Virus record (IMG/VR): IMGVR_UViG_3300042308_001511
Coordinates: 248,001 to 312,000 of that record
DNA: 64,000 nt
Source of the DNA: a virus
Direction: 5' to 3' (one strand)
Shown: piece after piece, positions 2 to 51,939 of the stretch
Layout of the letters: the number at the start of each line of letters is the position of its first letter
Position numbering within the stretch: the first letter of the stretch is position 1
Translations under genes and position numbers: made by a program
Notes under the pieces: generated by a model
What the model saw: only the letters and a program-made list of their open reading frames with translations
Told to the model about the DNA's origin: nothing
Database searches by the model: none

Positions 2-1273
2 AGTACACTTATAGGAAGTTATGATGGAAAGGGACTCATAGAATCTAGTGTTTTGGTTAATAAAATTGAAAAACCTACGGTAGCAGGAACTTATGTTCTA
101 AAATCTATAGGTAGTAAAAATCAGTGGGTACTTGAGAGTACTAGTGCACTTAGTGTCGGTGTGGCAAATAACACAACATTGAATCCGGGTTATCTTACAT
201 TTACTTCTGGATCTTCTGCGGGTTCTTCTTTATCCATAAACAATGTTAGTGGTAATAAAGCAATAGCATTAGATGCATCAACCTCTCAGCTTTTGGCTAG
301 TAGTGATACTACTAATTCTTCGAGTAAACCAGGTTATTCATTCTTAGGTGCTTCTAGTACAGGTCTTTATGCAAGTACTACAGAAGTTGGTATTTCATTG
401 GGTGGTTCTAAAACTATTTATTCAACATCTACTTCGACTAAAATTAGTGTTGCTGGTTTGGAAGTTGCTAAGTTTGAAGGTACTGCTATATTTCTAAACA
501 AGGGTACTACCATATCAGGTGGTACTACAACTATAACAGGTGGTCTTTTAGTTGCATCTACTTTTGGATATACTTTCGGAACTCCAGGTACTGGAAAAGT
601 ATTGACATCTGATTCCACGGGTAACGCACTATGGTCTTCGTTAGGTATGCCTTATGGAACAATAATAATGTGGGCATTTGATGCTGGTTCGATACCACCG
701 GATTTTAAGATTTGTAATGGTGTTGGATTTATTTTTGTAAATGGTGCGTATAAAGCTATACCTGATCTTAGGGATAGAAACATATCAGCTTCGAGTGATA
801 ATTCAACGGGTCCATATGGAAGTCTTACACCTACTACACAACAAACCGTTACTCTTTCGAATAGTCATTTACCACAACACTACCACAGTATTGACACTGC
901 TGTAAAAAATTATGCAGGTGAGAACGGTGGTGCTATAGTAGCTGCTTGGTCCACATTTACAGAGACAACGAATGGTGGTGCAGGACATACACACACTTTA
1001 AATTCAAGAGATGGATGTGCGGATAATTCTAGTTCCAGAAACTTTGGAAGTCATACGGGTGACTGTACTAGGTACACAGGTTATACTAAAATAACCGGAT
1101 CGGTTACAACATCACTCGATGGTTACACTGGTGGTCTGACTAGGTGGCAAGGTGCTGGTAATGTAAACCAACCATTCGCCGTACCATTTCTGAGAGGTTA
1201 TAAACTTATATTTTTGATAAAGTTTAACCCTGATGCAAATGCTAGCCAAAGTGGACATTATAAAGCAACTTAA
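2..1273 (+). CDS. Phage tail fibre / collar-domain protein, 5' end outside window
   Basis: The reading frame is open to the left edge, so the gene begins outside the window; a TTG at 53 is only an internal codon. The first part is Ser/Thr/Gly-rich and repetitive, as in fibre shafts, with a GTGKVLTSDSTGNALW segment common in phage fibres and host-like structural repeats. From about base 640 there is a collar-like domain (GTIIMWAFDAGSIPPDF, then ICNG and IPDLRDR), followed by a His-rich part and a terminal QPFAVPFLRGYKLIFLIKF. This order matches fibres with a phage tail collar domain. Likely a virion host-recognition protein. It converges with the metF-like gene at 1274, leaving no gap. Confidence 0.85.
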   Translation, partial: STLIGSYDGKGLIESSVLVNKIEKPTVAGTYVLKSIGSKNQWVLESTSALSVGVANNTTLNPGYLTFTSGSSAGSSLSINNVSGNKAIALDASTSQLLASSDTTNSSSKPGYSFLGASSTGLYASTTEVGISLGGSKTIYSTSTSTKISVAGLEVAKFEGTAIFLNKGTTISGGTTTITGGLLVASTFGYTFGTPGTGKVLTSDSTGNALWSSLGMPYGTIIMWAFDAGSIPPDFKICNGVGFIFVNGAYKAIPDLRDRNISASSDNSTGPYGSLTPTTQQTVTLSNSHLPQHYHSIDTAVKNYAGENGGAIVAAWSTFTETTNGGAGHTHTLNSRDGCADNSSSRNFGSHTGDCTRYTGYTKITGSVTTSLDGYTGGLTRWQGAGNVNQPFAVPFLRGYKLIFLIKFNPDANASQSGHYKAT

Positions 1274-6947: not shown

Positions 6948-7673
6948 CTAAAAGGGAAGGTAATCGTCGTTGTTGTAGGTTATTGGTTCCTTACCATGCT
7001 CTGTCACGAACTCTATCTCTTCCAGTTCCAGTACTGCGTGTATCCTTAGGTCTCTTATACTATCGTATCCTTTCAGTGGCTTCCATCCACGAGAGTCTAG
7101 CTTCCACGTCCTGGCGTTTGTCCTATCTGTTCGCATCTTACCGGAGTAGTTCGTTTGGTAGTGCATCGTCTGACAGTGAAGCACTGCTTCAGGGTGGTTC
7201 TCATAAAGTTTTTCACCATCCCAACTAACACCACAACACGAGATGTCCACGTTCTGAACGACTGCTGCGATTGGGTTATCTGCTGTAAATCCTGTAGGTC
7301 TTATGAGTTGAACAATCGCCATATTCTTCGGATTGAGCCAGGTCCTGGGTTCGTCGATTATCTTAAGGTTTTTGTACATCGCACCTAGGTCCTTCCCAGT
7401 GAGATTCTCCATATAAACGAATCCTTTAGAATGTAGAACTGCCTCTGCAGTGTGTAACATCTTCGAACCGAGTACTATATCAACATCATGTATATCTTGC
7501 TCGGCAATTGAATCTCTTATAGCACCACCGAAGATGCGTATGAACGGTTCTCCGACGATCTGACGGAACTTCGCAACAGTCCTGGGTATTCCTTCCACTA
7601 TTATTTTTTTTGGTCTTAGAAGTTCGTTAGAATCGAATCCAAGGTAGTCATCTAATCTTTTCTTTATGTCCAT
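6948..7673 (-). CDS. Nucleotidyltransferase (poly(A) polymerase / CCA-enzyme head domain-like)
   Basis: 241 residues. RIFGGAIRD at 46-54 followed by HDVDIVLG (DxD at 63-65) matches the polymerase-beta-type nucleotidyltransferase head domain of tRNA CCA/poly(A) polymerases. The C-terminal RNA-binding domains of full CCA enzymes are missing, so the protein may be a minimal nucleotidyltransferase with another substrate. It directly follows the HAD gene (stop 7674, start 7673). Neighbourhood with HAD and RNase H suggests nucleic-acid metabolism or RNA repair (inference). Confidence 0.7.
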   Translation of the reverse strand: MDIKKRLDDYLGFDSNELLRPKKIIVEGIPRTVAKFRQIVGEPFIRIFGGAIRDSIAEQDIHDVDIVLGSKMLHTAEAVLHSKGFVYMENLTGKDLGAMYKNLKIIDEPRTWLNPKNMAIVQLIRPTGFTADNPIAAVVQNVDISCCGVSWDGEKLYENHPEAVLHCQTMHYQTNYSGKMRTDRTNARTWKLDSRGWKPLKGYDSIRDLRIHAVLELEEIEFVTEHGKEPITYNNDDYLPF

Positions 7674-8177
7674 CTACTTAAGCATTTTTATTATCTTTTC
7701 TTTTATTCCGCTCTGTTTTATACCTTCATTCATTTTCTTTGTGTGTACAAAGTTTTTCAAAGCAGAAAGATCCATATCATCAATTGCGACCCACTTAACA
7801 ACGTGTGGGTTTTTTTCTAACCATTCATTTATTTCACCGACACGTAGCTCTGGTGACTTAAATGATGAGTGATGGTTTGGTGTGCAATCAATTGGTTGTT
7901 TGTAAACACCATAGTCTGTGAACATCTGTTTTAATTCTTCTAAACTACAATAAAGTTTCCAATCAGAAGAAACTACTATATCTGCACCAGTTTCTTCAAT
8001 TATAGTGTTTAGAATTTTCACCGCTTTGATATCAAAGTTGTCCATTTTGACCGACGCTGGTGCAGGAACATCAGGATTTTCAAGATTCCAACGTTTTATT
8101 TTTTTGGCACGAGTACCCCATTGCATAGCAAGGCATACGACACCATCATTGTCTAGAAATATTATCTTGTCGTTCAT
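7674..8177 (-). CDS. HAD-family phosphatase-like protein
   Basis: 167 residues. Motif I FLDNDGVV (D9, D11), motif II VVSSDW at 68-73 and motif IV VAIDDMD at 130-136 define a small cap-less HAD domain like those in RNA-repair proteins (pfam18143-type). Probably a 3'- or 5'-phosphatase on nucleic acid or a small phosphoester. A TATATTCGTAAG host-type promoter lies at 8191-8204. Confidence 0.75.
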   Translation of the reverse strand: MNDKIIFLDNDGVVCLAMQWGTRAKKIKRWNLENPDVPAPASVKMDNFDIKAVKILNTIIEETGADIVVSSDWKLYCSLEELKQMFTDYGVYKQPIDCTPNHHSSFKSPELRVGEINEWLEKNPHVVKWVAIDDMDLSALKNFVHTKKMNEGIKQSGIKEKIIKMLK

Positions 8178-8753: not shown

Positions 8754-10031
8754 TTATTTTCCTGTTCCTTCGCAGTATTCACAACTTTCAGAGTCGTAGT
8801 TTGTGTTGCAGGTGGAACACTCGACTTGACCGTCACCGTTACAATATTCACATTCCATTGTTCCACGACCACCGCACTCCTCACAATCAACTTCCTCGGT
8901 CTCACCTTCGCTATCCTCTATCTCAATCGATCCGTCACCGTCACAGGTTCCACATTGCCAGCTTCCTGTTCCTTCACAGTCTCCGCACTCCTGCATACCT
9001 TTGTTACAATCCGGACAGAGCTTGTGACCTCCTTCACAGTGTACACAATCACAACTTCCGTCCATTTCTTCGAGTTCCATATCGTATTCGGTACCGAAGT
9101 ATCCGTCGTTGTTACTTATTATCATATCGTTCTTGAAGAAATACTTAAGAGTGTCCATATATGGCCATTGTGAGTAGTGGTCACTACCCATCTCAACAGT
9201 GAAATATTTTGCACTCTCATCTTCTTTACCTTTGTAAATTGCGGTGAAATGCTCGTCATTGTTTTGAGACTCTTTGTAATGGTAACCATTGTCGTTGGCC
9301 CAGTTTTTGAAAACATTAACAAGTGACTCCTCGTTTGTGTAGATCCTATCCATCAACTTACCTTGTTTCTCGTACTTCATCTGGTACCCTTTATTCGAGT
9401 ATATTGCGATGTCAGTCCAGAGTATGGCTCTACCGACGATTAGATTCTGGTCTTCTGGAGACTTAAGTATGAGCAGCTTGCAGACGTCCGGATTGTTGGC
9501 GTATAAGTCAAAGTAATCAGATTTGTGTGCGTGTCTCATACACGACTTACCTAAGTCACCCTCTTGATTATAATAATTATTTACATTGTAGAACTTCCTG
9601 ATGTCTTCACCATCGACGACCTCCAAATACTTCTCCATATCATTAGCAAGTTGCTGCTCTCCTTTGTATCTGGTGACAAATTTGTAGACGTCCTCCTCGT
9701 TAACCTCAACGAATGGATCATCGAGGTTATATTCTTTGACCCATTGTCTTACAGCATTTATAATTGAGTTAACTACTTTACCGATGTTAGCGAGTTGTTT
9801 TTTATCACTCTCTGGGTGGTTAGTGAAACTGGCTTTACCGACCTCTCTTGACAAACCGATGTAGGTCTGTCTGAGTTTCTCGAAATCTCCACCACCTAAC
9901 TTTATAAGTGCTGCTGCGACCTTATCTTGGTGTTTGTTACTTATTATTTGTAGGGTGTCGAAAAAGTCTTCCTCGAAAATAAGGTACATCTCGTTCAACA
10001 TGAATAGTTCGTACGTCTTTAGTTTTCTCAT
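8754..10031 (-). CDS. Leader-bearing protein with DnaJ-type CxxC repeats
   Basis: 425 residues. Leader MRKLKTYELFMLNE. The middle contains GKSCMRHAHK, LLILKSPED, GRAILW and MDRIYT, a pattern partly echoed in the 584-residue protein at 20519. The C-terminal ~100 residues hold at least six CxxC knuckles, several as CEGTG, CDGDG or CGGRG like the DnaJ cysteine-rich zinc domain. No J domain is seen. May bind unfolded protein or RNA. Late-type promoter at 10034-10045. Confidence 0.75.
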   Translation of the reverse strand: MRKLKTYELFMLNEMYLIFEEDFFDTLQIISNKHQDKVAAALIKLGGGDFEKLRQTYIGLSREVGKASFTNHPESDKKQLANIGKVVNSIINAVRQWVKEYNLDDPFVEVNEEDVYKFVTRYKGEQQLANDMEKYLEVVDGEDIRKFYNVNNYYNQEGDLGKSCMRHAHKSDYFDLYANNPDVCKLLILKSPEDQNLIVGRAILWTDIAIYSNKGYQMKYEKQGKLMDRIYTNEESLVNVFKNWANDNGYHYKESQNNDEHFTAIYKGKEDESAKYFTVEMGSDHYSQWPYMDTLKYFFKNDMIISNNDGYFGTEYDMELEEMDGSCDCVHCEGGHKLCPDCNKGMQECGDCEGTGSWQCGTCDGDGSIEIEDSEGETEEVDCEECGGRGTMECEYCNGDGQVECSTCNTNYDSESCEYCEGTGK

Positions 10032-11491: not shown

Positions 11492-12136
11492 ATGATGTAT
11501 TTAAAAACTTTCGAAGGTTTCGCAGAAGGAAATAGGGGCTATGTGATGCAGGTTATTACGTCCATGTGTGAGAACGACGAGATTGACTTCTCACTCGAGA
11601 CGACCAGTGTGAAGGACGGGAAGGAGACCGATTCGGTGTTTATTTTTCGTCTCGATAAAGGACCGCAGATTGAATCCGTACACGAGGCGATTGCTAGGCT
11701 CGACGACATCGGTTACTTCGCACAGAAGGTGAATTGGATACACGCCTTTCACTGTGTCATTGTTTACAGGAAGGACTGCTTGCTGGTCGATTATATGGAC
11801 GAGTTCTACGAGCGGGCTTTGAGCAGAAGAAAACTTTCTGGTGGTTATTTGGATTGTCTGGTCGGATCCCATCCTGAGAAGTCCCAGGAGATATACGCGG
11901 ATATGATTAAGAATTACGAGCACGTCGTTCTTGGAAACGAGACGTATTTCATCAGTGAGAAGGCGGAACAGTTGACGCTGAACCACGGTTCTGTGGAATG
12001 GAAGGACGGCAAATTCGGGTGGCTGCCTAAGACGAAGACCAGACATTTCGCGACTATGTACAAAACGAACAGTGCTTGGTGGTCTTGGTATTCTACATTG
12101 GATGTAGATGACTGCATCTTTATTCCCTGGACTTAG
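11492..12136 (+). CDS. Leader-bearing protein, paralogue family A
   Basis: 214 residues; two ATGs in tandem, the second (11495) giving the better leader MYLKTFEGFAEG. After the leader, MQVITSMCENDEIDFS parallels MMSICDDMSFS in the 44704 and 51307 proteins, defining a paralogous family. GC content and codon choice look higher in GC than the flanking minus-strand genes. Likely a late virion-associated protein; function unknown. Confidence 0.75.
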   Translation: MMYLKTFEGFAEGNRGYVMQVITSMCENDEIDFSLETTSVKDGKETDSVFIFRLDKGPQIESVHEAIARLDDIGYFAQKVNWIHAFHCVIVYRKDCLLVDYMDEFYERALSRRKLSGGYLDCLVGSHPEKSQEIYADMIKNYEHVVLGNETYFISEKAEQLTLNHGSVEWKDGKFGWLPKTKTRHFATMYKTNSAWWSWYSTLDVDDCIFIPWT

Positions 12137-12151
12137 AATAGATTTTTTATT

Positions 12152-12739
12152 ATGAAATGGATTAAAACATATGAAGCTTTTGGTAACGAACTCGAGACAG
12201 CTATACAAGTTGTTATAACGATGCTCGGTGAGGTCGAACGGCTGTACAAGGTGCCACGGAGCGAGTGGGGCGACGAAAAGATTGACGTGCCTGAGGAACT
12301 TATAGTGCTAGAGCTTCTGGACTATGACCGGTACACGAAGGATTGGGACGACTTCGAGGCGATGATGGCGGAGCAGTGCCCGGGCGTTCTCTTCCGTGAG
12401 AACATGAGGAACCGAAGGATTGTGCTCGGACTGGGCTCATTCGACGAGTACTGCATAAAGAAGCTGAACGAGATGTTCCCTTATAGCTGGGCCGATGAAA
12501 TGAGTACGCCGAACATATACACTTACAGGACGCCTTCGATGCGCTTCGACCAGGGCCTCGCGTTCCGTGAGCCTGTGCTGAACAAGGTCAAGGTGGCGAG
12601 CTATGTCTGGACTTTCCTGGACGCGGTGATGTGTATGGGTAATAGGAGTCGTGACGCGCAGAGGCTGGTTGGTCGTTGGCTTAACGAGATGCTCGGCTGG
12701 GATCTGGACGTGAATAGGACGACCTACGATAGTTGGTAA
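12152..12739 (+). CDS. Leader-bearing protein, paralogue family A
   Basis: 195 residues, leader MKWIKTYEAFGNE with a Glu near the expected cleavage position. The following AIQVVITMLGEVER matches family A in hydrophobic spacing. Distinctly GC-rich codon use compared with the genes around it. Sits 15 bases behind the previous gene, so both are probably cotranscribed from the late promoter at 11480. Confidence 0.75.
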   Translation: MKWIKTYEAFGNELETAIQVVITMLGEVERLYKVPRSEWGDEKIDVPEELIVLELLDYDRYTKDWDDFEAMMAEQCPGVLFRENMRNRRIVLGLGSFDEYCIKKLNEMFPYSWADEMSTPNIYTYRTPSMRFDQGLAFREPVLNKVKVASYVWTFLDAVMCMGNRSRDAQRLVGRWLNEMLGWDLDVNRTTYDSW

Positions 12740-12755
12740 CGTTCAATACAACAGA

Positions 12756-13988
12756 TCAGTTTAAAATCTTGGTAGCATAACCGTTATTATATTCCTTTTT
12801 GGTAATAACGTCAACTATTGTAATATCAGTCTTTTGTGATTTAGACCATTTTACAAACTCAGGAAGGTGATCTCTTCGATCATCATAGAAAACAACCTCA
12901 GTTGGGTTGAATTCTTTTATCTTATCTTCTAATGTTTTGATTTTATATTCTAAGGTTACTGAGTCGATTGGTTTAAAGATATATTCATCAAACTCTAAGT
13001 TTTGACTTTCTAATACTTTTCGAACTTCATTTTCTAAAGTTACGACACGACCAGTCATCATTATAAGATAATCACCATTTTCCTTACTATGATTGTATTT
13101 GTCAATGGTCCAATCATTTGTTTTAATATCAAACAAAGATAAATCTAATGATAGTGGTGATTTCCACCAATCAACACCCCTTTTAAAAGGCTCACCAAAT
13201 TTCAACATCCATTCACTTTTAATTGGTGTATGAAATAAAGTATCGTCAAAATCAAAAAATACTAATCTTTGAGTGGTTAAACTTTCTTTTATAACATAAG
13301 TGTCATTTTTTCTAACTGCCAATTTTCCATCCATAAATTTGTAAAACTTATATTTCTTATCAATTGAGGTTACAATATAATAAGAATCTGGGTTTAATCC
13401 TTTATATCTCTTAATATTTCCGTCTATTTTAATACCATCAACTTCACCACCTTGTTGTTTAGCATAAGCCCACTTAATATAGTTAGGATCGACATGTCTA
13501 TCTCTTAGTTTATCTTGATCCAATGAAGTCTGAAGTGTTGATAAAAGATGTATAAAAACAATTTCATAGTTAAACTCTTTTGCTTTATCAAATATTTCTT
13601 TAACGTGTCTAAACCCTTTATCTGTAAATTCTTTACCTGCACCAGTTGTATCATAGATAAAGTTTTGACCAGTTTTAATAAAAGATTCTAATTTACTAAT
13701 ATTTAATTCAGATGCATTTTTAGTTCTACCACCTTCCGGAGTTTCTTTACCTTTGTAATAAACATTTGGATCTCCAGTATAAAGAAGTGATACGTCATCA
13801 GTTGAGAAATCTTTTATACTTTGATTCTTAGTATGTATATGATTCTTAATAAAATAAGATTTACCAATACCAGGTGCTCCAATAAGAAAAACTGCTAAAC
13901 CTTTTTCCTTATTAATTATTTCTTTGATAGGTTCATTTTTAGACCATTCTTCTAAAATAAATTGTTGATAGATATTTATATACTTCAT
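12756..13988 (-). CDS. Leader-bearing polynucleotide-kinase/phosphatase-like fusion
   Basis: 410 residues from the ATG at 13988. The frame extends further upstream, but that extension overlaps the gene at 14020 and this start gives the leader MKYINIYQQFILEE. P-loop GAPGIGKS at 37-44 begins a zeta-toxin/Pnkp-type kinase domain (IYDTTGAG at 111-118 and a lid with DRHVDP). A HAD phosphatase domain starts at about 245 (FDFDDTLF), with MMTGR and FYDDRRDH. Kinase followed by HAD phosphatase is the architecture of T4 Pnkp, which heals broken RNA ends. Here the leader suggests packaging into the head, so it might be delivered at infection (inference). Late promoter at 13991-14000. Confidence 0.8.
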   Translation of the reverse strand: MKYINIYQQFILEEWSKNEPIKEIINKEKGLAVFLIGAPGIGKSYFIKNHIHTKNQSIKDFSTDDVSLLYTGDPNVYYKGKETPEGGRTKNASELNISKLESFIKTGQNFIYDTTGAGKEFTDKGFRHVKEIFDKAKEFNYEIVFIHLLSTLQTSLDQDKLRDRHVDPNYIKWAYAKQQGGEVDGIKIDGNIKRYKGLNPDSYYIVTSIDKKYKFYKFMDGKLAVRKNDTYVIKESLTTQRLVFFDFDDTLFHTPIKSEWMLKFGEPFKRGVDWWKSPLSLDLSLFDIKTNDWTIDKYNHSKENGDYLIMMTGRVVTLENEVRKVLESQNLEFDEYIFKPIDSVTLEYKIKTLEDKIKEFNPTEVVFYDDRRDHLPEFVKWSKSQKTDITIVDVITKKEYNNGYATKILN

Positions 13989-36662: not shown

Positions 36663-37544
36663 ATGAAGTACATAAAGACTTACGAAGTGCTGAAGGAGGC
36701 CAAGCTTCCCAGAAGGAGGTTCATACTACTGTCAGGCCCCAGCGCCTCTGGTAAGTCAACACTGGCAAAGAACCTAGGTGCCACTCACTGGTACGATAAG
36801 ATGTCCCAGGCGGTACTGATTGGCACCGACGACTTTATGAATAGAAAGGCCTTCGGGGTTATGAAAAGTCTTTGTAAGGCTGCGGGAATGCCTTTACTGG
36901 CCGCTATGATGAAGGACTGGCCGCACGTATTCGACCAATACAAAAAAGACTTCACAAAGTGGCGCAAGACGGCATCAACCGAGGAGCAGTCAATCTTCGA
37001 CGACCTACATAAGAGGTTCCCTATCGATAAGGCGAAGGACAACGCTCCACACTTCCACCAAGACGGAAGGATCACAGGGATGGCCTGGTGTGCTGCACTT
37101 CTACCTAAGGAGTGTAAGACCATATTGTTCGACGACATATCTGTTGGTATAAAGAAGTACTTCGATGTTGATGAGTGGATCCTGTTCACACCATTTGACT
37201 GGTTGCTTAAGAACATAACCGACAGGAACTCAGATAAGGATAAGAGTGTTCATATAGACGTGAACTCGGAGGGTACCGCTATATACCAGTACTGCCAATG
37301 GTGGCAGGCGTCTGCTGAGGCGGATCTCGACAACAAGATGTACACGGCGGATTCTGTTAGGACGATGCTGTCTGCGGCAGGTCATAATGATCCAGATGAG
37401 GTTCTTTCGCTACTGGGTGTTAAGGGTCTTGATAACGGGTTCTATCTTACGACCAGGGACTGGATCGACGCGGGTTCGAGGATTGTGAACACCAGGGATG
37501 TTTCTACCGGTAGGGCCGGGGATTTGCCGGGTGGCTTAAAATAA
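36663..37544 (+). CDS. Leader-bearing P-loop (zeta-toxin-like) kinase
   Basis: 293 residues. Leader MKYIKTYEVLKEA with Lys-Glu-Ala. P-loop SGPSASGKST near 28-37, then VLIGTDDFMNRKAF in the substrate-Asp position of zeta toxins/nucleotide kinases, and ILFDD as a Walker-B-like strand. Probably a nucleotide, polynucleotide or UDP-sugar kinase. With the leader and late promoter it is a candidate ejected effector. C-terminal Gly-rich end. Confidence 0.75.
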   Translation: MKYIKTYEVLKEAKLPRRRFILLSGPSASGKSTLAKNLGATHWYDKMSQAVLIGTDDFMNRKAFGVMKSLCKAAGMPLLAAMMKDWPHVFDQYKKDFTKWRKTASTEEQSIFDDLHKRFPIDKAKDNAPHFHQDGRITGMAWCAALLPKECKTILFDDISVGIKKYFDVDEWILFTPFDWLLKNITDRNSDKDKSVHIDVNSEGTAIYQYCQWWQASAEADLDNKMYTADSVRTMLSAAGHNDPDEVLSLLGVKGLDNGFYLTTRDWIDAGSRIVNTRDVSTGRAGDLPGGLK

Positions 37545-44703: not shown

Positions 44704-45138
44704 ATGAGATACATAAAGCTTTACGAGGATTTCTCCGCATCGGATTTGGACCAGGTGATGATGTCCATCTGCGACGACATGTCGTTTAGTCTCTACTACG
44801 AGGGTAATCTGTCCAGGGTCTACACGGTCGATGGGCGGGTTGACGACACCGACCTGTCCAGGTGGAAGGACTACCTCGGTAGCGAGTGGACCATACTTGT
44901 GAACACACTTGTCAATAATAGCTGCGTGACGTTTGTTAGGGGAGACGAGGGTGTTTTCCCTGCGGTAAAAGAGATGTTGATGAAGTTATGGCCAACGAAG
45001 AGGTCGATAGATTACAATGGATTTGGTGGTGTTGATACGAACTGGTTCAGGATCAGGAGAGATCTGATATGGTACTTCGATCTCAGCTCGTCACAGGCAA
45101 GAACTTTGTTGAAGGATCACTACGAAGAGGCAGAGTGA
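44704..45138 (+). CDS. Leader-bearing protein, paralogue family A
   Basis: 144 residues from the ATG at 44704; an upstream ATG would translate promoter sequence. MRYIKLYEDFSASDLDQVMM and SICDDMSF are nearly the same as in the 51307 protein (paralogues). GC-rich. Function unknown. Confidence 0.75.
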   Translation: MRYIKLYEDFSASDLDQVMMSICDDMSFSLYYEGNLSRVYTVDGRVDDTDLSRWKDYLGSEWTILVNTLVNNSCVTFVRGDEGVFPAVKEMLMKLWPTKRSIDYNGFGGVDTNWFRIRRDLIWYFDLSSSQARTLLKDHYEEAE

Positions 45139-50644: not shown

Positions 50645-51310
50645 ATGAAAATTAGAATGTTTGAGAATTGGTCACAAGACTTCGTGACAGATTTCACCGA
50701 CAACGGTTTCGATGTTGATGTGAATGAATATACTATCAACGGACAGTATAAGGGTAAGTTCGTGGTTACACAGGTTTCCAGGTGGTTCGACGATATGTTG
50801 GGTAAGATAGATACCGAGTACAATATAATGAGGACTAAGACATTCTTTAATTCGATTACAGGGAATGCCAACTTCGAGGTTGTTGTTGCACCTCCTACGA
50901 GTGGAAACTCGATTGAGTTTATGTTGGATGGTGTCAAGCATGAGTTCTATATAAAATATGTCAGGTGTTTCGGTAGCGGATCTGAAATAGGCCTTGCGTT
51001 TGTGGGTAACCGTGGTGATGGAGATTCTGGAACGATTTATATCAGTGTAGTTGAGAGTCCTGTGAGGAAGACGAAGAAGATCCGTTTTGGTTACAACAAC
51101 AGGACCAAAAACGTTCTTGTGTCGATGGATGTAGTGGGTAAGCTACTGGAACTAATCATCTCAGATAAATTAGAGGTAGGTGATTATGGTGAGAGAAAGA
51201 AGTATAGTGAGTTAACTAATGAAGAGCTAATTATTCGTAAATTTGATGGTGGGATGACCAAGCAGAAGTTCGATTTACATATAGATGCAATAAAGAGTGT
51301 AGTGAGATGA
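50645..51310 (+). CDS. Leader-bearing hypothetical protein
   Basis: 221 residues. Leader-like MKIRMFENWSQD, mixed alpha/beta body with basic patches (RKTKKIRFGYNNRTKN). Overlaps the next leader gene by 4 bases. Confidence 0.7.
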   Translation: MKIRMFENWSQDFVTDFTDNGFDVDVNEYTINGQYKGKFVVTQVSRWFDDMLGKIDTEYNIMRTKTFFNSITGNANFEVVVAPPTSGNSIEFMLDGVKHEFYIKYVRCFGSGSEIGLAFVGNRGDGDSGTIYISVVESPVRKTKKIRFGYNNRTKNVLVSMDVVGKLLELIISDKLEVGDYGERKKYSELTNEELIIRKFDGGMTKQKFDLHIDAIKSVVR

Positions 51311-51939
51311 GGTACATAAAACTATATGAAGAGTTCTCCAAGAACGAGTTCGACCAGGTGATGATGTCAATCTGTGAGGATATGTCCTTCGAGGTCTACG
51401 AAGATTTCCCTTCTACTGAGGATGTAAGGGTCTACTTGGTGGACGGTTTACCTAACATAGATCGTTCTAGGTATGAAGAGTATTTGGGTGATGATTGGCA
51501 TATTATTTCGAAAGAGTACAGGTATCTCGATAAGTGTATGGTTAGTTTCGTGAAGGGTGAGCCTAGTGATGCAGCTCTTAAGTGGTTGGAGGATGTGTAT
51601 GGTGACCTGAGACGAGAAGAGGAGCATCTTCCTTCGACTGAATGGGGAGCTTATGGTGAGAAGGCGGGTATTTCCTACAACTACATTGATGGTACTGGTA
51701 GGAAGATACTATCATTCGTTGTGCGTGATGTTTTAAATCAATCGATGGATCCGTTCGATATGGAATCTTCGGGTGGTACGAAAGTATATTTCAACACTGA
51801 TGTGCGTGACTTCCTACGAGCTTGTTTCGGTCTGTCGGATTTATTTGCACATATTCTAAGAGATATAGTAAATATTTGGATTAAGGATGTGTATGGTATA
51901 AACGGTCATGTCTATCTTCTTCCTCCTAATAACAGGTAG
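51307..51939 (+). CDS. Leader-bearing protein, paralogue family A
   Basis: 210 residues. MRYIKLYEEFSKNEFDQVMM and SICEDMSFEVY match 44704; the C-terminal part is longer. ATGA-coupled to the previous gene. Confidence 0.75.
   Translation: MRYIKLYEEFSKNEFDQVMMSICEDMSFEVYEDFPSTEDVRVYLVDGLPNIDRSRYEEYLGDDWHIISKEYRYLDKCMVSFVKGEPSDAALKWLEDVYGDLRREEEHLPSTEWGAYGEKAGISYNYIDGTGRKILSFVVRDVLNQSMDPFDMESSGGTKVYFNTDVRDFLRACFGLSDLFAHILRDIVNIWIKDVYGINGHVYLLPPNNR

Follow-up and report, generated by a model that had tools for sequence, protein, structure and literature searches.

The window analysed here is a stretch of 64,000 nucleotides, corresponding to positions 248001-312000 of a virus record of 344,083 bases (IMGVR_UViG_3300042308_001511), and its minus strand encodes at 12756..13988 a protein of 410 aa in which a short leader, a P-loop kinase and a HAD phosphatase are joined in one chain. 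The frame is intact, with the ATG at 13988 and the end at 12756, and a search of the whole record with the protein found a single copy. The open frame listing also holds a longer, GTG-started frame that reaches 14123, and this start is not needed because the relatives begin at the same leader methionine. The order from the N- to the C-terminus, as given by the translation, the models and the fold matches, is a 13-residue leader, MKYINIYQQFILE (residues 1-13, minus strand 13950..13988, leader score 14.6), then a domain of the 5'-polynucleotide-kinase type with the Walker A motif GAPGIGKS (residues ~28-235, minus strand 13284..13907), recognised by profile matches to PDB sequences and by fold, and finally a HAD_SAK_1 phosphatase domain with DFDDT, TGR, K and DDR motifs (residues 241-410, minus strand 12759..13268), recognised by Pfam, motifs and fold. 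Residues 1-14 lie outside the fold, with pLDDT <50. The preliminary description of this DNA had placed a leader-bearing kinase-HAD fusion at 12756-13988; these coordinates proved exact, and the domains were confirmed by Pfam, translation and models.

The kinase half gave only weak matches in Pfam, to AAA_33 and Zeta_toxin, both at 0.0059. A profile built from 16 kinase relatives and run against PDB sequences placed Pnkp1 first (3e-12), the L-seryl-tRNA(Sec) kinases second (9e-10) and the Pnkp kinase of Clostridium thermocellum third (4e-9), the latter entry being listed as "metallophosphoesterase" in the sequence table, whereas the structure titles call it polynucleotide kinase; near 1e-6 came zeta toxin and T4 Pnk (T4 Pnk 1.5e-6). 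The kinase and the HAD domain were modelled separately, as aligning the kinase-only relatives together with the HAD-only ones placed the DFD motif wrongly on the kinase. The kinase model (mean pLDDT 84) is closest in fold to Clostridium Pnkp (Z 16.6, rmsd 2.4 Å, 162 aligned residues), and zeta toxin (Z 13.4), mammalian PNKP (Z 13.3), tRNA(Sec) kinase, T4 Pnk and Pnkp1 come at Z 12-13.4. The other half matches Pfam HAD_SAK_1 (PF10307) at 7e-10 over residues 261-395, with 39.5 bits against a curated cutoff of 25.6, and at E<=1 Pfam gave the fusion protein no phosphatase model of the T4 Pnkp type. Its catalytic motifs DFDDT, TGR, K and DDR are invariant across 30 aligned relatives. The HAD model (mean pLDDT 92.9) resembles Pnkp1 most closely (Z 15.7, 134 aligned residues), followed by the 3'-phosphatase of T4 Pnkp, then by another HAD at Z 13.1 and the remaining HADs at Z ~10-12. 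Both halves, modelled independently, match Pnkp and therefore both indicate end healing, so that a predicted RNA-end-healing enzyme with 5'-kinase and 3'-phosphatase activities is well supported by the models and sequence comparisons, RNA ends being the putative substrate.

The likeness to T4 Pnkp (pseT) that had been proposed for the domain order was borne out, and each domain folds closest to Pnkp domains. Like T4 Pnkp, the fusion protein has the kinase before the HAD phosphatase in one chain, both domains align with their T4 counterparts (kinase Z 12.4, phosphatase Z 15.4), and a ligase of the Rnl1 type is encoded in the same genome. It differs from T4 Pnkp in that its phosphatase is HAD_SAK_1 by sequence, its kinase is nearer to Clostridium Pnkp and Pnkp1, and it has an N-terminal leader. 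We rejected an orthologue of T4 Pnkp because the phosphatase is HAD_SAK_1, a domain that usually occurs alone. The Swiss-army-knife family HAD_SAK_1 has been described as the RNA-repair phosphatases of jumbo phages, which tend to stand alone (PMC7824862); the HAD domain studied here scores above the cutoff of that family and, unlike those proteins, is joined to a leader-bearing kinase. As the HAD belongs by sequence to HAD_SAK_1 and not to the T4 Pnkp phosphatase family, the leader-bearing kinase with HAD_SAK_1 is, on these family assignments, a new domain pairing. Pnkp1, the top match of the kinase profile and the top fold of the HAD model, has the same kinase-phosphatase order (PMC4411300); it differs in coming from bacteria, where its partners are Rnl and Hen1, and the passages on it mention no leader.

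The comparison with relatives suggests that the kinase-HAD fusion is of recent origin. In the closest relative of the kinase (L034, 77% identical) VIKES is followed by an unrelated domain, the kinase of L036 continues into the same type of unrelated domain, and those of L035, L239 and L240 consist of the kinase alone. Among 45 distinct HAD relatives the domain begins at most 13 residues from the N-terminus, and the leader is absent from all of these standalone proteins (45/45). The leader is kept in 9/10 kinase relatives; its letters differ and [IL]xE stands near its end in each of the nine (ILE, ILE, IKE, INE, ILE, LEE, INE, LNE and LKE). The exception is the kinase of LR756502 (L017), which has no in-frame ATG upstream of the kinase and no clear ATG-started leader. 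The kinase homologue at L035:4558-6579 holds an intein-like insert inside its Walker A motif (GIGK|C), with an in-frame stop in the middle of the insert.

The leader is not special to the kinase-HAD gene because ~12% of the genes of this genome have one. Nor is it a chance pattern: with a position model of the leader, 56/465 gene starts reached a score >=8, compared with 3/1612 internal methionines (a contrast of ~60-fold) and 0.11% of random sequences, a threshold that is not independent because the seeds of the model came from the same genome. Two aromatic residues at spacing 3 are seen in 75% of leaders, against 16% of the remaining N-termini; among the other spacings only 4 is enriched (34% of leaders against 12%). 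At positions 8-18, 43% of leaders against 8% have a glutamate with A, G or S directly after it; a hydrophobic-x-E lies near the leader in only ~46% of the 56, and the full YxxFIxE core is present in only 5/56. Leader genes are often adjacent, with 18 pairs observed and 6.4 expected. Two plus-strand leader genes lie beside the fusion gene, MKWIKTYEAFGNE at 12152..12739 (leader score 20.3) and (M)MYLKTFEGFAEG at 11492..12136 (leader score 17.8).

In phage T4, ten N-terminal residues are enough for packaging into the capsid, targeting depends on leader positions 4 and 7 and processing on 8 and 10, and the cut made by gp21 falls behind L/I-X-E (PMC9026906). Y7, F10, I11 and E13 of MKYINIYQQFILE correspond to T4 positions 4, 7, 8 and 10 (Y, F, I and E) with equal spacing. 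The preliminary description had called the leader head-targeting, and this agrees with the match to the T4 capsid-targeting core and with the repetition of the motif by the gp21-type protease-scaffold of relatives. The leader is probably a head-targeting peptide, and the ILE in MKYINIYQQFILE is its candidate cleavage site. The relatives with larger genomes are T4-type, as judged from phmmer searches of LR756502 with T4 proteins, which found terminase (5e-49), portal (2e-28), sheath (1.5e-13), capsid protein (5e-6) and a gp21-like protease (4e-4). The domain of this protease matches 722 phage records, many of them annotated as gp21 or head maturation protease. In the LR756502 protein of 699 aa (L047:25372-27471) the protease runs on into a scaffold-like region made up in part of ~11 tandem repeats of YSEYIAENLDKN (YSEYIAEN); the repeats are 14 residues long (YSEYIAENLDKNIA), and their core YxxYIxE is that of the leader and of the T4 peptide YQEFIAE. 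The same arrangement of protease and repeats is also present in L130 and L132-L134. Repeats were found in LR745206, LR756501, LR756504 and G003, the 476-kb record that encodes the leader-bearing kinase L036, and the closest relative, G001 (with L034), has a 55-aa frame with three of them.

No repeats, terminase, portal, capsid or protease could be recognised in the 344-kb record itself. Searches of the record with Pfam Peptidase_S77 and Gp23 gave nothing usable, and a PHROGs scan of 20 of its large proteins returned replication genes and TROVE and no head proteins. The record is probably a fragment, and we read it as incomplete because the T4 head proteins gave no convincing match among its ORFs. 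As this contig is without head genes, the link between leader and protease-scaffold rests on the relatives. At genome 152068-152175 (L022), inside a 71-aa frame, lies a weak match of 36 residues to the T4 capsid family (E 0.005), possibly a remnant or chance. In another relative, LR756508, the kinase (L018) stands within a run of nine consecutive genes that share a third leader type, MKLxDLLxE (M-x-L-x-D-L-L-x-E), and the gp21-type protease (L149:8481-10205) is flanked by ~eleven genes that all begin with M-x(4-6)-LRxxIRxEL and apparently form a second leader family. No repeats of either LR756508 leader were seen in this protease and its neighbours. These N-termini suggest that leader families vary with the phage. 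The LR756508 protease also holds an intein-like insert.

The preliminary description had stated that no ligase was visible in the window, which is correct, and had called for an RNA ligase to be sought elsewhere; the genome holds, beyond the window, an Rnl1-type ligase (PF09511, 6.5e-22) along with two further ligase-fold proteins. An Rnl1 ligase is present in 4/4 kinase-encoding genomes searched. The genome also has, outside the window, a CCA-adding enzyme (PolyA_pol 3e-28, N-terminus MKKKIMSYDVFLENK) and a cREC cyclic-phosphate enzyme with the start MIKKFENFDFLPTK, for which PF20274 scored 2.9e-16 in a family scan of the leader set that names no member, the match being assigned to this gene by homologues and start. 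The N-termini of these two enzymes score 6.5-7.0 in the leader model, under the strict cutoff of 8. RtcB was not found in the genome. A repair theme had been extended to the genes beside the fusion: the wider set of RNA-repair genes stands, and the neighbouring HAD and nucleotidyltransferase are without leaders. The former is a second HAD phosphatase, HAD_SAK_2 (minus strand 7674..8177, Pfam PF18143 1.4e-25), and the latter a putative Pol-beta-type nucleotidyltransferase (minus strand 6948..7673) with a Pfam PolyA_pol match of 0.0024, below the cutoff, and a relative in L035. A TROVE/Ro60-like RNA-binding protein is encoded at genome 48608-50122 (L004:10608-12122; PHROG 1.1e-43, Pfam TROVE 1.5e-17). 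No tRNA genes were found in the whole 344-kb record, which is unusual for a phage this large, and we rejected the repair of phage tRNAs as the purpose for this reason.

The leader is also found on RNA-repair enzymes of the relatives. It is present on the Rnl1 ligases of LR745206 (MKLFKYIEFINEN), LR756502 (MKKLHRYNSFIKES) and G003 (MKLFRYKEFLRES) and on the CCA-adding enzymes of LR745206 and LR756502, with the cores YIEFINEN, YNSFIKES, YKEFLRES, YKMFLES and YAKFLES. The Rnl1 of the phage studied here has no leader and starts straight at the shared IPTYEEA segment. Since the relatives' Rnl1 and CCA enzymes have the leader and this Rnl1 is without it, the leader behaves, by sequence, like a detachable module on the RNA-repair enzymes of the clade. 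RNA-repair genes are not significantly enriched among the leader genes of this genome (Fisher p 0.13, loose cutoff), and for this reason the argument draws on the identity of the motif and its conservation rather than on enrichment.

From sequence and structural models we lean towards the reading that the kinase-HAD protein is an RNA-end-healing enzyme which is packaged into heads and injected. By its YxxFIxE core the leader would attach to the prohead core, where in relatives the protease-scaffold repeats the same peptide ~11 times; a gp21-type protease would then trim off the leader behind its glutamate (FILE|EWSK), leaving the mature enzyme with the DNA, to be packaged with it and injected alongside the genome. 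In the host cell it would convert the 5'-OH and 3'-phosphate ends left by tRNA- or RNA-cutting defences to 5'-phosphate and 3'-OH, a putative counter-defence role, and the healed ends could then be sealed by an ATP-dependent RNA ligase. The Rnl1 of this phage is seemingly made after infection; close relatives have the leader on their Rnl1 and also on their CCA-adding enzyme. The weak link in this phage is that the ligase without a leader would have to be made first, unless the healing step is enough by itself or a host or early ligase can do the sealing. A packaged enzyme would avoid delay, because tRNA-cutting defences stop translation and an enzyme that needs translation could come late.

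T4 Pnkp is made after infection, and the fusion protein might likewise heal RNA ends only after its own synthesis, its leader tagging a destination other than the head, such as a phage compartment, or acting as a general N-terminal assembly motif. We regard this as unlikely. A leader on ~12% of genes, many of them without an L/I-x-E site, and a contig without head genes would agree with it, but the motif matches the T4 capsid-targeting core at equal spacing, the prohead protease-scaffold of relatives repeats this motif, and the genes beside the prohead protease of LR756508 also have common N-terminal leaders.

Two other functions of a packaged enzyme have to be weighed against the healing of RNA ends. 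The position of Pnkp-type kinases as first by both profile and fold, ~3 Z units over zeta toxin, the ranking of the HAD with Pnkp phosphatases and the co-occurrence of the Rnl1 ligase make it improbable that the protein is a small-molecule effector, i.e., a zeta-toxin-like or nucleotide kinase with a HAD that would alter host metabolism at entry, even though the Pfam matches of the kinase are weak and limited to Zeta_toxin and AAA_33, and zeta toxin ranks second among the fold groups (Z 13.4). It is also very doubtful that the enzyme mends nicks or breaks of the incoming genome by restoring their 5'-phosphate and 3'-OH, as mammalian PNKP does. That enzyme is among the fold matches of the kinase (Z 13.3) and the genome has a DNA-ligase-type ATP-grasp protein, but the HAD family is named for RNA-repair proteins, RNA kinases rank over PNKP by profile and fold, and the same leader is found on the relatives' RNA ligase 1 and CCA-adding enzyme.

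The packaged RNA-end-healing reading can be extended, tentatively, to the clade: these huge T4-type phages might package a ready-made RNA-repair kit in the virion via leaders that copy the repeat peptide of the prohead protease's scaffold domain. Such a kit would contain the 5'-kinase and the 3'-phosphatase, joined in some members by RNA ligase 1 and the CCA-adding enzyme. If true, tRNA damage by host defences could be repairable from the first minute, ahead of phage translation. Searches of the open-access literature turned up neither packaged RNA-repair enzymes nor this leader family in huge phages, nor the combination of the known parts, namely Pnkp-type healing, jumbo-phage RNA repair and T4 capsid targeting. 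The T4 proteins IPI-IPIII and Alt share with the fusion protein a short N-terminal peptide, YxxFIxE and the L/I-x-E cleavage rule (PMC9026906). They differ in being a handful, compared with ~56 leader genes here whose targeting and cleavage are predicted, in that the putative cargo here is an enzyme, and in that the scaffold of the relatives itself repeats the leader peptide. For huge phages that have not been cultured, the leader family provides a sequence criterion by which their likely internal proteins can be listed, and the repeats of the protease-scaffold hint at how dozens of different cargoes could be recruited by a single core.

A second leader-bearing P-loop kinase-like gene, MKYIKTYEVLKEA, lies on the plus strand at 36663..37544 (leader score 15.2, AAA_33 6e-4). 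The minus-strand gene MRKLKTYELFMLNE at 8754..10031 (leader score 19.7) has homologues in L034-L036 and a paralogue at genome 333266-334936, and homologues of this paralogous pair are found in all close relatives; its protein has a cysteine-rich C-terminus resembling a DnaJ-type zinc finger. Four scattered paralogous leader genes, at 44704-45138 and 51307-51939 of the window and 158435-159025 and 166882-167424 of the genome, have near-identical MRYIKLYEEF starts and common DxVMMSICD segments.
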